Positions 7,992 through 44,714 of a DNA stretch of 64,000 nt are shown piece by piece; position 1 is the stretch's first letter, and every line of letters begins with the position of its first letter. The notes under the pieces are model-generated. The model saw nothing but the letters and a program-made list of their open reading frames with translations. It searched no databases and was not told the DNA's origin. Source of the DNA: Urechis unicinctus (taxonomy: Eukaryota; Annelida; Polychaeta; Xenopneusta; Urechidae); assembly GCA_034190875.2 (NCBI GenBank), contig CM067346.1, forward strand, positions 14,496,285 to 14,560,284. Reading direction: 5' to 3'. Position numbers and translations under genes: made by a program.

Positions 7992-8293
7992 TCTTCGTCA
8001 TGCAGAGGTTAACGTGCTCCCATACATCTTATTGTACAATGCAGCAATTGCACGAGAACATATGATGATAAGACTCGGTGTGTAAACAAATGAATCCAGT
8101 ATTGTTTCAATTAGTGTTCGCTGATAAGCGTTTACAATGTAGCATTGTCATCAATGCAAACGGGTTAAGCGTCGCTGCAAAAGTGTTGCATGTAGTACGT
8201 AAGCTACATTTGAAATGCCTGTTCGATGGGTCATATTATTCATATCTCTCTCCTGATGGTGTGTGGATGTTCTCAATAAAACGCCTCCACTAG

Positions 8294-11200
8294 ACGCATA
8301 ACATCAGCTATTTAGATAGCTTTTACCGTTCAAAAGTTGTCAAATGTGTAATTTGGTATATCAAGCTTGAACATGAGAGAGTGGGCATTTATGACAAGTA
8401 CGTGCGTTGTCGCGAGAGAAAAAGATATCCTTGTTTGAATTGTATTGATTATTTTGAGTGAATATGTATTCGGAATTGTCAATACACATCCGAAGGAATT
8501 GGCAACGGCAAATTCTATGCATCGCGAATAGTGGTTGTAATTATCAGCAACGCCTACACCCGAAAAACCAGCATCCTGAGCGCGAGGCTTGATATATGCG
8601 TCCTATCACACATGTTCATTTATAGCCATCAGCAGAGGCAAGCGGTGAGCTTATTTTTAGAATATTTGACTGAGGCTTAGTCCTTTTTTACAGCAATTAA
8701 GGCGACTTTGTGTATGACCTTGCATATTCCAGCTAAAAGAAGCCATATGTATAGAAAGCCACTGACGCACAGCAGTTATATTTGGGTGCACCTTTTTCAC
8801 ATTGGAGTAGTTCCAATTGAGACACTCATCTTTTCATTTGTCCTAGACCACATGGCCTTATCTAATACAGCCGGAAACCTTTAGTGTCTATGATTGAATC
8901 GGGAAGATAAGAGGCTGCATAGGAGATCGCAACGTGCAAAAAGTATAAGCAGCGAAAATGGTAATCCCTGTGATCATAAATACTGATTATCTTTCAAACT
9001 AACTGGTTCATGGTGGTTTTAATCAATTGTGTAGTAGTGATTCTACACCTAAATAAACATATTTCATTTACCTTGATACATGTAGCGTTCAGACGAATGT
9101 TGAATAGTGCATACTCGGTTTTAAGCACACCACCATCAATGGTAAAAGCCATGAGTGCTGATAATTAGAAACGGCAATGAATAATAATGCTGAACGAAGC
9201 AATACACTATTTTGTTATAGTATACTCCTTCTGTCACCTTTTTATTCATTCTCATCCATTACCGTGGCGATGTCATCCCCTTTATTGAAAGAGACTTCAA
9301 ACCCAACTTTTGCCATAACCCCAACCTTACCCATAGCGCTGGCTATTAACTTCAACATAGCATATTTGTGTCATGGCAGTTTTAAAAGGATCTCCCGAAG
9401 AGTATTCCAATAGCTTTTTTTCTGTCAGATGGAACGTTTTTGCGTTGGCATAATAGTTGGTACACCTAATTGAAACGGAAATACCGAAATACCGTCGCCT
9501 GATTGCTCATATAAAATGTTCGTGTGATTATAGCTTCTATGATGCTATGTATCGCTTCCTTGAGACACAAAGCAATATATCATGTCTTTTTAAGCATCAT
9601 TTCTACTGACCTGATTACAGACGCCGTCGTTTTTATTGCTCTGTAAACAAGGCTTTATAGCGGTTCTGCATACAGTAATATATGCCTGTGATTGAGATCA
9701 TAAAAAGGTGCGAGTTTTTATTCGATGCTGTTGTCAAGTCACTAATGCAACATGCCATGCAAAGAAATCATGCAAGTTATTTTGCGTATGAAATCGTTTT
9801 CCAAAACGCCAACTAATTAATCCGGTTGATAACATTATGCGAGTGCATGCTGTTTACATCCATACACAGAGAAAATGTGCAAAGTGTCAGGAACATGATT
9901 TTGTAATGTGGTAACCAAATCGATAGTATGACTATTGGAGAATATGGAAGGCAGCCACCAATTAATACACCCCGATTCTGTAGAGCCATGTCTTACGTCG
10001 CTGACGGTCACTATTTGTTTAATGGACACTACGCCACATCAAGGAGCTGCAAACGCGTCGCAATTACCCTCATTCGCTATCGTTCAGCTGTCCCATCTAC
10101 AGAGAGAGTGACGAAAAACTCAATGATGATCTTGTTTTTTACAAAATGTCAACAACAATTACAAGACAGCAACTTTGGCGGCTACTTCGTTAACATAATA
10201 ATATTGTGTCGTCAGGTCTGGTTTCCCGGACGTAATGATTCCAGGAAAGGTACATTTGTCAACCTCGAGCTTGAAAATGTCCTGGCAGACAAATATTATG
10301 TCGACATTAGAGAATTTACATGAAATAGAATCTTTCTTGGAGCAGTTGGTACTAAACCGATTGTTTAGGTTAACAATGCTTTGCTTATGTGCTTAAACTT
10401 AGGATGAGAGTATGCACGATGATTCGCCCATGTCATGCCAGGTATTATGTTCAAACTAGTCGAACTTGTCGCCCTACGGCACTGTCGCATAAATCATTTA
10501 TTAGCATGGAATAGCATGCTTTACATATGCTGTTAGAGAAGAATAAGCATTGGCGACAGAGCCCGCATTCTAGCTCCCTGTTGCCAGTAACGGGCGAACT
10601 TGATTTGCACAGCCCACAATGGGCTTATAAGTAGATGCATTTATTCGGATATATAAGTTTGCAAGGCACTTCATCCACAGCATTGCAATGGGTGCTTTGT
10701 ACTGCCAAAGTTGTGCGGGAGTATTATTGAACGACCATATATTCCGCAGATCAGCACTCGACCACAATCCGGTAAGTATAGCAATTCAAACTATATATCA
10801 AAAATAATCCGAGGGATTTAAAAAATGCAGCTAATTTTTCAGCTCTTGACATGAATAACAACTTGCGTCAGCTTATTCCGACATGGAAGCAAACTTCTTG
10901 TTTAATAAACTGACTGCGATATTGTCCGATTACTTGGATTTGCGATGGGTATCTACAATTGTACCAGATATCACGGATGGGCCGCTGTTTTAAAGGAATA
11001 TTATGGAATACAGGCCAACGTCTAATAGAAAAGGACCAACATAGGATTAATTAACTTGCTTGGTTAATTTCACCTTGCCAGAATTTCACTCCCAGATAGG
11101 AAACTTAATTCATATTAAACTTATCCGCTGTCTCTTATACGACGTTCCTAATACTTTGTTACCAGAGTAAAAGAGGGCATAATTTTACTAAAAAGAGCCA

Positions 11201-12280
11201 CGCCCTGAACAAGTGTTCATTAAGTCTGGAGTTTGTAGTGCACTCTCTTTAAGTCAAACCTGCTCTCCTGTGATCACTCGCGGCTAACAAAGACGCAAAA
11301 AAAAAATTTATTCTTGGAATTAATTAGTTGTGCACATAGCAAACATTACTTAACATATTGATGGACCTCAAATGCACCAGCAGCCAAAGATCATGCACTT
11401 CCCAAAGCAAGTCGCACACAAAGCTTTGCTTTGGTTCATAAATCGGCGGTGTTTCAAACTTCATTCTGGTTTATAGGAAATATGTTTGACTAATGATTGG
11501 CCAACAAGAGTAATTTTAGTAAAGGTGTAGGAGTTATCTCGAATTCCCTAGCGTACCCTTGAAACATGTCCTTTCAGAATCACAATGTTGATGGAATCTG
11601 TAGCAAAACAATAATATAAGCGGTAAGTGTTGCATGAATGCATATCCGTCACCTACTGAAAGACCATTTGAACTACAATATGCGTTCGAGTCTGTTTAAC
11701 TAATACATTAACTTGTAAAGCATCAATATCTGCACGTGAACGGATGGCGACAATTATGTTAACTCGACTGTAACTATAACTATGATATACTGGCGTAATA
11801 TTGTCACTCCATGTTAAAACCTTGCGTTTATGCGGCGCATTGTACATGCAACATGATCTATGATTGCCAGATTGCCAATCTGTGATTGTTCTTAAGAGAA
11901 TTGTCATCACATCTCTTTGATTAGATTCAGATCAGGAAAATTTGATGCCATTTTCGGTGCAGTCTTTAATTATTGTTTACAATAAGACAGTGCCTTAAAC
12001 ATCATACTTTTAATCCCATCAGTGCATGCATTCGTGATGTTGAGCCTTCCTTTCTAAATGATTGCCAGTGCAAGTTCACCCTGCATTGTTGCGTTATTTG
12101 AGCCACATGAATATCCACACTGCTACTATGATATTTAAGCTTGCATAATATAATTGATGATTAATGGTGCCGGTGATGGCAAAAGTGTTCATGATGACCT
12201 AGTAACATTAATAGTCAGAGGCATACAGAATATAGACAATTGTAGTTGTCACAAGCTAATTTTTCATCCTCACAAGTCTC
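8294..12280. other. Copy 1 non-coding stretch, no gene recognised
   Basis: ORFs here (9177-9413, 9928-10323, 11653-11910) are short and unrecognised. The 131-codon ORF at 9928-10323 is destroyed in copy 2 by many small indels. The matching stretch in copy 2 is 26,830-30,580. I see no splice-signal pattern that would define exons. Confidence 0.45.
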
Positions 12281-12300
12281 CCCTCCCCCCCCCCCCCCCC
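12281..12300 (+). repeat. Poly-C tract
   Basis: A C run of about 16 bases preceded by cccct. In copy 2 the same site (about 30,583-30,590) has only 8 C. This is a length-variable homopolymer, also prone to sequencing error. Confidence 0.9.
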
Positions 12301-43109: not shown

Positions 43110-43114
43110 TCAGT

Positions 43115-44490
43115 TTGTTCCTCATATGCGCCCAAAACTATTCTGTTTGCTCTTTAATACGCATCGCTACATACTAAATATGCATCCTATTATGGTCAAG
43201 GATTTTTCAGAATGTACTGCCTTTGGTTTCCTAATGTTTAATTCTCAATTCTTTGACCTCTATCCAACCAGATATTAAGGCATCTGGAATTGCTAATAAA
43301 AGACCATTGGTTTCAGATGGTGTTTTCAGAATGAGGGGACATGCACAACAGCGGGGACGCTGTTTATGTCGGTGTCAACTAGATAAATCTATAAATGCCA
43401 ATCGTTAGTAATAGCAAATATGATACTGGGTGTTATGGAGCCAAATGACCTAGTCAAGGCGAAGGCAATGAATGCACAGAATGAAATCAGGGTGGAAATA
43501 CAGTCATGATAGACCTACATAGTTCCTTCAAATGGTGATGTTTACGACCAGAGTCTCGTTAGCAGGTAGTGACTTAAGGTACGCCTGTTAGTTGTGATGC
43601 CATTCAACATTTCTCAATAGATAAATCATCATGGTTATTCATTATCGTTATTTGTCTCATTTGCTTATTTATAACCTTCTATATTGTTTTGACTCTGTTA
43701 CCGCTAGTGCATTTCTTTGTTATATAGCCGATTTATTTTGAAATGACGGGTAAAGAGCTATTTTTGTACCAGAGTAATATTTAACAGCAAACGAGGTACA
43801 CATGAAGCCAATGTGTAAAATACAGTTATATCATGACACATATAAGACATAATAATAAATAATCTTCCGTGGTATTATACCACAAATTAACATACATTTT
43901 GATACCAGTCTGTGTCTCATATTGCACAACTAGTAAGGCGAGGGGACCTCATATCGGTATATTGATGTGGTCTTGCGGAGTTTGATAATTAATCTATATA
44001 TGCATCGTGTAATAATATCAACGAATGGGTTATCAATGATAATTCCAAGAGCAAGATTGGAACCCTATCAGTAAACGACATTTGTACGTTTACATTTCGC
44101 CGCTTGTGTTAAAGTGTTTTCTAAAATCCATTGCAAATCTGTTTTGAGCCGACACCAAACAGTTAAAATATATTTAATTAAACGTTATTGCTATGATATT
44201 TAATACAGTTATGAAACGGAGCTGTTATTTATGTTTTAAAAAGCTAAATGTAACATTCGAAATGATAGGTCATGAAGATATATTTGGAAGAAGGGAGAGA
44301 AAATGCTGTAAATGCAATAATAATTGAATTGTGTGTAATTTCACATTGATAGCAATTAAACCTGCTTCCATCGGGACCGCAAAAACTGCTGGTGACGTAT
44401 GGTGAGCATATCTGTAAAAATATCCTGTAGAACAGTATTATGTTATCCTGTAATATGGTTTGGGATGTAGCAAACTTATATATACATAAA
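43115..44490. other. Copy 2 tail, no gene recognised
   Basis: Matches 25,350-26,700, with an extra stretch gtcggtgtcaactagataaa and neighbours (about 43,369-43,402) that copy 3 also has and copy 1 lacks. No conserved ORF. Confidence 0.5.
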
Positions 44491-44714
44491 AGTAGAAAAG
44501 GTATTAATATATATATATATTTAAATATAAATATATATATATATATAGGGGCATGCTAAATTATACATATATATATATATTTATATATATATATACACAC
44601 ACACACATATATATATATATATATATATATATATATATATATATATATATATATATATATATATATATATATATATATATATATATATATATATATATAT
44701 ATATATATATATAT
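44490..44714. repeat. (TA)n microsatellite, very long
   Basis: TA dinucleotides almost uninterrupted from about 44,608 to 44,714, preceded by mixed TA/TTTA and a short CA tract. A matching tract lies at 57,668-57,882 in copy 3. ORFs of 60-62 codons on both strands are artefacts. Confidence 0.95.

Follow-up and report, generated by a model that had tools for sequence, protein, structure and literature searches.

Uneven divergence between tandem copies of a receptor-bearing unit in Urechis unicinctus, probably shaped by gene conversion

Interlocus gene conversion between tandem duplicates is an established process. The kind of gene-family growth considered here is likewise known, as tandem expansions of genes for G-protein-coupled receptors (GPCRs) are described in cephalopods (PMC6408891). 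Here, we analyze a 64,000-nucleotide stretch from the annelid Urechis unicinctus (the window; C5:14496285-14560284, in an assembly of 1.19 Gb and 926 contigs), in which an 18-kb unit carrying a receptor gene is present twice, head to tail. The two copies, units A and B, range from near-identical to more than 4% different along their length, and comparison with a third unit, E, outside the window leads us to favor real neighboring tandem paralogues with gene conversion as the probable explanation. The features on which this account rests are the following.

4944..8063, forward strand: UF, the upstream flank, homologous to the sequence upstream of unit E (85% identity including gaps).
8202..26782, forward strand: unit A, the first 18-kb copy, delimited by self-BLAST.
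26783..44568, forward strand: unit B, the second copy, delimited by self-BLAST.
26782..26783, no strand: junction J1, an AT-rich unit end abutting a unit start, with 1 bp of microhomology and no N.
52930-57718, forward strand: C, a third copy of the unit tail, within copy 2 of a second duplication.
About C5:14579150-14596600, same strand as A: unit E, ~75 kb downstream of A.

The initial annotation had described a head-to-tail 18-kb duplication with a clean junction and at most a few bases of homology, and self-comparison returned its limits (8202 and 44568) and its junction (26782/26783) exactly, with 1 base of microhomology forward and 0 back. Direct colinear matches, with identities that include gaps, pair 8202-8265 with 26783-26846 at 100%, 8343-10715 with 26848-29111 at 88.6%, 10817-17867 with 29112-36092 at 96.8% and 18562-26783 with 36088-44569 at 94.2%; given their length and colinearity, these matches are not due to chance. 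The alignment of A and B spans 17,444 columns with 440 substitutions, and 105 indel events separate the copies. The whole window is free of N, and the 40-mer at J1 is present, among the loci compared, only in those that overlap J1. The copies are adjacent and direct, as in a tandem segmental duplication, and share a single junction that is the derived one, with the unit-to-downstream order being old, because C runs colinearly past the position of the B end into the downstream flank (43624-45267 / 56777-58413) and because the order of upstream flank, unit and downstream flank is also found at the independent unit E. Three other places in the local receptor cluster show the end of UF (6696-8201) and the unit start in colinear order. 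Each unit also contains an internal direct repeat of ~250 bp, 71-74% identical (17203-17453/17466-17691 in A and 35434-35684/35697-35917 in B), which occurs in unit E as well.

Three properties of the locus had been overlooked: a second, overlapping tandem duplication, copies beyond the window and a strongly uneven divergence between A and B. We partitioned this divergence with a two-state hidden Markov model (HMM), which gave four segments.

8202..12841, forward strand: segment I of A; A-B 4.6% (HMM), with A nearer to E overall, in a patchy manner.
12842..16729, forward strand: segment II of A, with the receptor gene; A-B 0.76%, with A nearer to B than to E.
16730..22212, forward strand: segment III of A; A-B 4.25%, with A nearer to E than to B.
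22213..26782, forward strand: segment IV of A, up to J1; A-B 0.26%, the differences being mainly short indels.

Unit E is preceded by UF-like sequence and followed by sequence like the downstream flank that lies behind B. Its flanks are clearly distinct from those in the window: upstream, 85% identity including gaps, with substitutions at 96/1,021 and 146/1,979 positions (7-9%); downstream, 87% identity, with 327/3,642 substitutions (9%). Over 8422-20892, A and E differ at 246 of 12,388 positions (2.0%). The distances A-B, A-E and B-E are 4.7, 2.5 and 4.9% in segment I, 0.76, 2.0 and 2.4% in segment II (A-B differing at 29 of 3,870 columns, in three sub-segments) and 4.3, 1.75 and 4.3% in segment III. 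For segment IV the overall A-E figure of 9.5% is distorted by unaligned ends; in five intervals of 23316-25823 there are 0-1 A-B and 10-18 A-E differences per 500 columns, and two outgroup stretches give an A-E distance of 2.0-2.6%.

Outgroup-polarized sites follow the same partition. Across 12 stretches, sites grouping A+E, A+B and B+E number 16:8:2 in segment I, 1:46:2 in segment II, 19:3:3 in segment III and 1:20:0 in segment IV, where some stretches in II and III overlap, so that some sites are counted twice; with outgroup G, segment I splits 13:0:0. None of the eight intervals in segment III reverses the relationship, and B is without stretches of 699, 36 and 94 of 101 bp that A and E share. 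Alternating relationships of the kind that gene conversion leaves, at silent and non-coding sites as well, were found throughout, except in patches of segment I. B is a recombinant mosaic: through segments I, II and III the overall A-E distance stays similar, and it is B-E that shifts. In B, segments I and III are older, and the receptor segment and tail alone are young, since the A-B distance in I and III is overall about twice the A-E distance. The earlier description of the duplication as recent can, therefore, be kept for the receptor segment and the tail and has to be dropped for segments I and III.

The simplest version of our account is an older tandem copy, B, partly overwritten from A. 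J1, with its 1 bp of homology, would have arisen in AT-rich sequence by a process such as end joining or replication-template switching, and B would then have persisted until it was ~4.5% different from A. Later, A sequence would have entered B in two places, ~3.9 kb including the receptor and ~4.6 kb beside J1, leaving two near-identical receptors within otherwise older duplicated DNA. The direction from A to B is suggested because overall A-E hardly changes on entering segment II, whereas B-E drops there from ~4.5% to 2.4%. This model requires one duplication and two conversion tracts, within a cluster that shows exchange at other places too. We infer that the join exists in the animal and that conversion was the mechanism and, on the same footing, any function that the extra copy may have.

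The second tandem duplication, also head to tail, overlaps B and supplies the third unit tail.

40936..52929, forward strand: copy 1 of the second duplication (tail of B and downstream flank), with a CT microsatellite at its start.
52930..61531, forward strand: copy 2 of the second duplication, from self-comparison.
52929..52930, no strand: junction J2 of the second duplication, with 0 bp of microhomology.

C differs by 6.5% from A and from B alike. It contains 1229 bp (55548-56776) for which A and B have a clean empty site, and the first ~280 bp of this sequence recur behind the unit tail in E, at 97%. A simple insertion in C is ruled out by this partial sharing with E, and A and B may instead share a deletion. 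At the seven large indels no target-site duplication was apparent, and the three at which terminal repeats were sought showed none. A single replication-template-switch event that yielded both duplications was also rejected: it predicts that the tail of A equals C, whereas the tail of A actually equals that of B. At 46556-47042, two open frames (136 and 156 amino acids) are translations of a TG/CA microsatellite and not genes.

The main alternative, serial haplotypes, had been raised in the initial annotation, and we hold it to be possible but doubtful. In this assembly artefact, A and B are the two haplotypes of one locus, set one behind the other, and a single set of reads gave rise to both copies of the tail. 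Taken to its full extent, this alternative has the window switch back and forth between haplotypes, such that C and the first 14 kb of A belong to one haplotype, and B and the tail of A belong to the other. Several observations weigh against real tandem paralogues. J1 is known from the assembly alone, and the junction partners at 26782 and 52930 both lie in simple or AT-rich sequence. There are never more than two clearly distinct sequences at any position of the window, and segment IV, its sole three-copy overlap, holds two only (A=B, with C different). Both duplications show a similar divergence, 4.4% (399/9,023, in the HMM-high A/B segments) versus 5.0% (337/6,800; p 0.12), and animal heterozygosity of ~4.4% is known (4.39% in a lancelet, PMC4284660), so that 4.5% could be allelic. 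Within segment I, two of the three stretches depart from the A+E grouping when p14238 is the outgroup (3:7:1 at 11059-11837 and 0:1:1 at 8790-9139), A-E is not smaller than A-B in three of the eight intervals (8229-8871, 11119-11620 and 11621-12137), and 76 bp at 8266-8341, just before the close A-E similarity starts, are missing in both B and E.

The near-identical tail adds to these points, as it differs by short indels, mostly insertions, with the A-specific ones near J1. With C as outgroup, the changes in segment IV that are specific to A or B comprise 14 short indels and 5 substitutions (14:4 under one of four alignment settings), compared with 3:167 specific to C (Fisher p about 1e-14). 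A stricter control, which sets 17 short indels and 12 substitutions in the whole of segment IV against 45:399 in the divergent A/B segments, gives p 2e-9. Eleven of the 14 are insertions (7 insertions and 2 deletions in A, 4 and 1 in B), and two of the 14 events sit at microsatellite or alignment edges; without these two, 11 of 12 A-specific events lie ≤1.2 kb from J1. Along segment IV, B-specific events precede the A-specific ones, which gather toward J1; this order has an exact one-sided p of 0.0003 when the edge events are excluded and a permutation p of 0.007 when they are included. Outgroup E gives the same trend at 22220-25820, where changes specific to A or B amount to 3 substitutions and 8 short indels, one of the indels lying at an alignment edge, and those specific to E to 101 and 3. 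In segment II, the sequence 3′ of the receptor is without such a signature (18 substitutions, 1 short indel). The pattern looks like consensus error beside a poorly supported join, and false duplications carry more erroneous k-mers and sit at boundaries between heterozygous and homozygous sequence (PMC9516828). The tail is probably truly identical with a poor consensus, a state that could result either from double assembly of one stretch of DNA or from an assembler misled by two copies that really are identical.

Against an artefact stand joins that overlap by 1 and 0 bp, the absence of a gap at the join and the multi-copy cluster in which the locus lies in the assembly. Whole-genome searches queried with the initial 3 kb of A and of B, which pass over simple repeats and score the best candidates only, gave long matches on C5 only and at most about 76 bp elsewhere. 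In addition, taking segments I and III as wholes, the distance between the supposed alleles exceeds that between A and the separate unit E; under an artefact, the unit at E must postdate the split of the alleles, although its flanks differ by 7-9% in substitutions from those of the window. Unit E is what tips the weighing from an artefact toward a real tandem. Read depth alone would be a misleading test, given that a real allele-specific tandem duplication likewise yields haploid depth (PMC9516828).

If the tandem is real, we assign a minor share to a second history, in which the whole unit was duplicated very recently and a divergent allele or paralogue subsequently took the place of segments I and III in B. 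This would account for the near-identity of the receptor segment and of the tail up to J1. It also requires a donor ~4.5% from both A and E, and the genome searches with the initial 3 kb of A and of B found no such long copy; an unsampled allele would serve.

The receptor itself is encoded by one single-exon frame per unit, and the two proteins are 99% identical.

15548..16783, reverse strand: receptor open reading frame of unit A, 411 amino acids, a single open frame, Pfam 7tm_1 at E 1.2e-26.
33796..35022, reverse strand: receptor open reading frame of unit B, 408 amino acids, a single open frame, Pfam 7tm_1 at E about 1e-26.

Both are rhodopsin-like class A GPCRs by profile, with 7tm_1 scores of 94.2 and 94.3 bits against a cut-off of 30.5; the match spans residues 37-325 on profile positions 1-260 of 260, the Srw model matches too, and hydropathy indicates several transmembrane stretches. 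The initial label of a neuropeptide-type receptor is reasonable, in that the best solved-structure matches, taken as ranked matches only, are the thyrotropin-releasing hormone (TRH) receptor (TRHR, 1.5e-15), neuromedin-U receptor 1 (NMUR1, 1.6e-11) and GPR139 (1.7e-10). Over the first 395 codons, A and B show 3 synonymous differences and 1 non-synonymous difference, and their C-termini diverge because 44 bp (15534-15577 / 33772-33816), set in sequence that is otherwise almost identical, contain 9 substitutions and a 1-bp indel. B is the odd copy: A and five other open copies have 411 residues ending in SETYKQI or SETCKQI, and B has 408 ending in KIPHSENI, of which KIPHSE resembles p12754. Within the 44 bp that alter the C-terminus, A has the palindrome CACCATTGGTG, a possible hint of local template switching. 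That the receptor segments of A and B are alike solely through selection on the protein is highly improbable, for although their ratio of non-synonymous to synonymous divergence (dN/dS) is 0.10, their dS is 0.011 compared with 0.058 for A-E, and the non-coding flank within segment II, 2.7 kb long, is only 0.7% different (19/2,674), a closeness that selection on the protein could not produce.

A genome-wide receptor search, in which the best 102 of 810 candidates were scored, returned 127 matches. Thirteen of the places that match the receptor form a near cluster of 1.9 Mb (C5:12.75-14.64 Mb). Seven of these places contain full-length open copies, namely A, B, E and four copies on the opposite strand, and the other six are partial or carry stops. 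The seven open copies have dN/dS of 0.10-0.34 at dS of 0.011-0.22, a pattern of purifying selection. Of the young paralogue pair in an expanding family that had been proposed, the family stands, and a single recent age does not. One place, p14232, on the other strand and ~280 kb away, differs from A, B and E by 2.0-3.3% in the 3′ flank and by 15-40% in the 5′ flank, and because it is close on one side and distant on the other, sequence exchange recurs in the cluster beyond the A/B pair. We think it likely that these genes are members of a local cluster that grows by tandem duplication and is partly homogenized by ectopic exchange. More tentatively, homogenization might be ongoing and centered on the gene, such that conversion keeps the receptors near-identical while the surrounding duplicated DNA drifts, with receptor exchange even between inverted members ~280 kb apart.

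Elsewhere in the assembly, a further group of relatives, 45-58% identical to the window receptor, occurs at scattered places on C1, and one of its members lies on the 61-kb contig C153. Directly upstream of the window (L045, C5:14486285-14496284) lies a much older, degenerate copy with 65-79% identity to parts of 2619-3431 and 9485-13497. No receptor relatives were confirmed in bacterial genome contigs or viral contigs, and the window contained no RNA families at the gathering threshold and no tRNAs. Pfam searches of 20 further open frames of the window, picked from 164 listed that were themselves filtered from 325, gave a single match, below the cut-off.

If the duplication is real, it is a clear case in which percent identity fails to date tandem duplicates, as one 18-kb pair spans 0.26% to 4.6%, and the local receptor cluster to which it belongs may differ in copy number from one individual to another. 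Were homogenization indeed centered on the gene, receptor number and dosage could rise without protein divergence. If the duplication is instead an artefact, a gap-free stretch of a chromosome-scale assembly can contain a false gene copy.

Among described systems, the GPCR clusters of cephalopods (PMC6408891) and of the crown-of-thorns starfish (PMC5442662) resemble the Urechis locus in their local, co-located receptor copies; unlike those clusters, as the cited accounts portray them, exchange between neighboring copies is mapped here at base level. To TRH receptors and the protostome receptors related to GPR139/142 (FMRFamide type 1, RGWamide, MIP and proctolin; PMC8557429) the receptor is linked by its solved-structure matches, which are ranked matches only, and by its matches to the 7tm_1 and Srw models, and it is a candidate member of that group. 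With false heterotype and homotype duplications (PMC9516828; Purge Haplotigs, PMC6267036) the window has in common adjacent copies, error-like indels and a boundary between divergent and identical sequence; it departs from them, as outlined in those sources, in its gap-free junction and in that, over two segments as a whole, the supposed allele of A lies farther from A than E does. Interlocus gene conversion, with the RPP8 family (PMC6771003) as an example, offers the same alternating relationships and young tracts within old duplicates, and our locus differs in that its tracts are ~4 kb and its donor and recipient are assigned from three units only.

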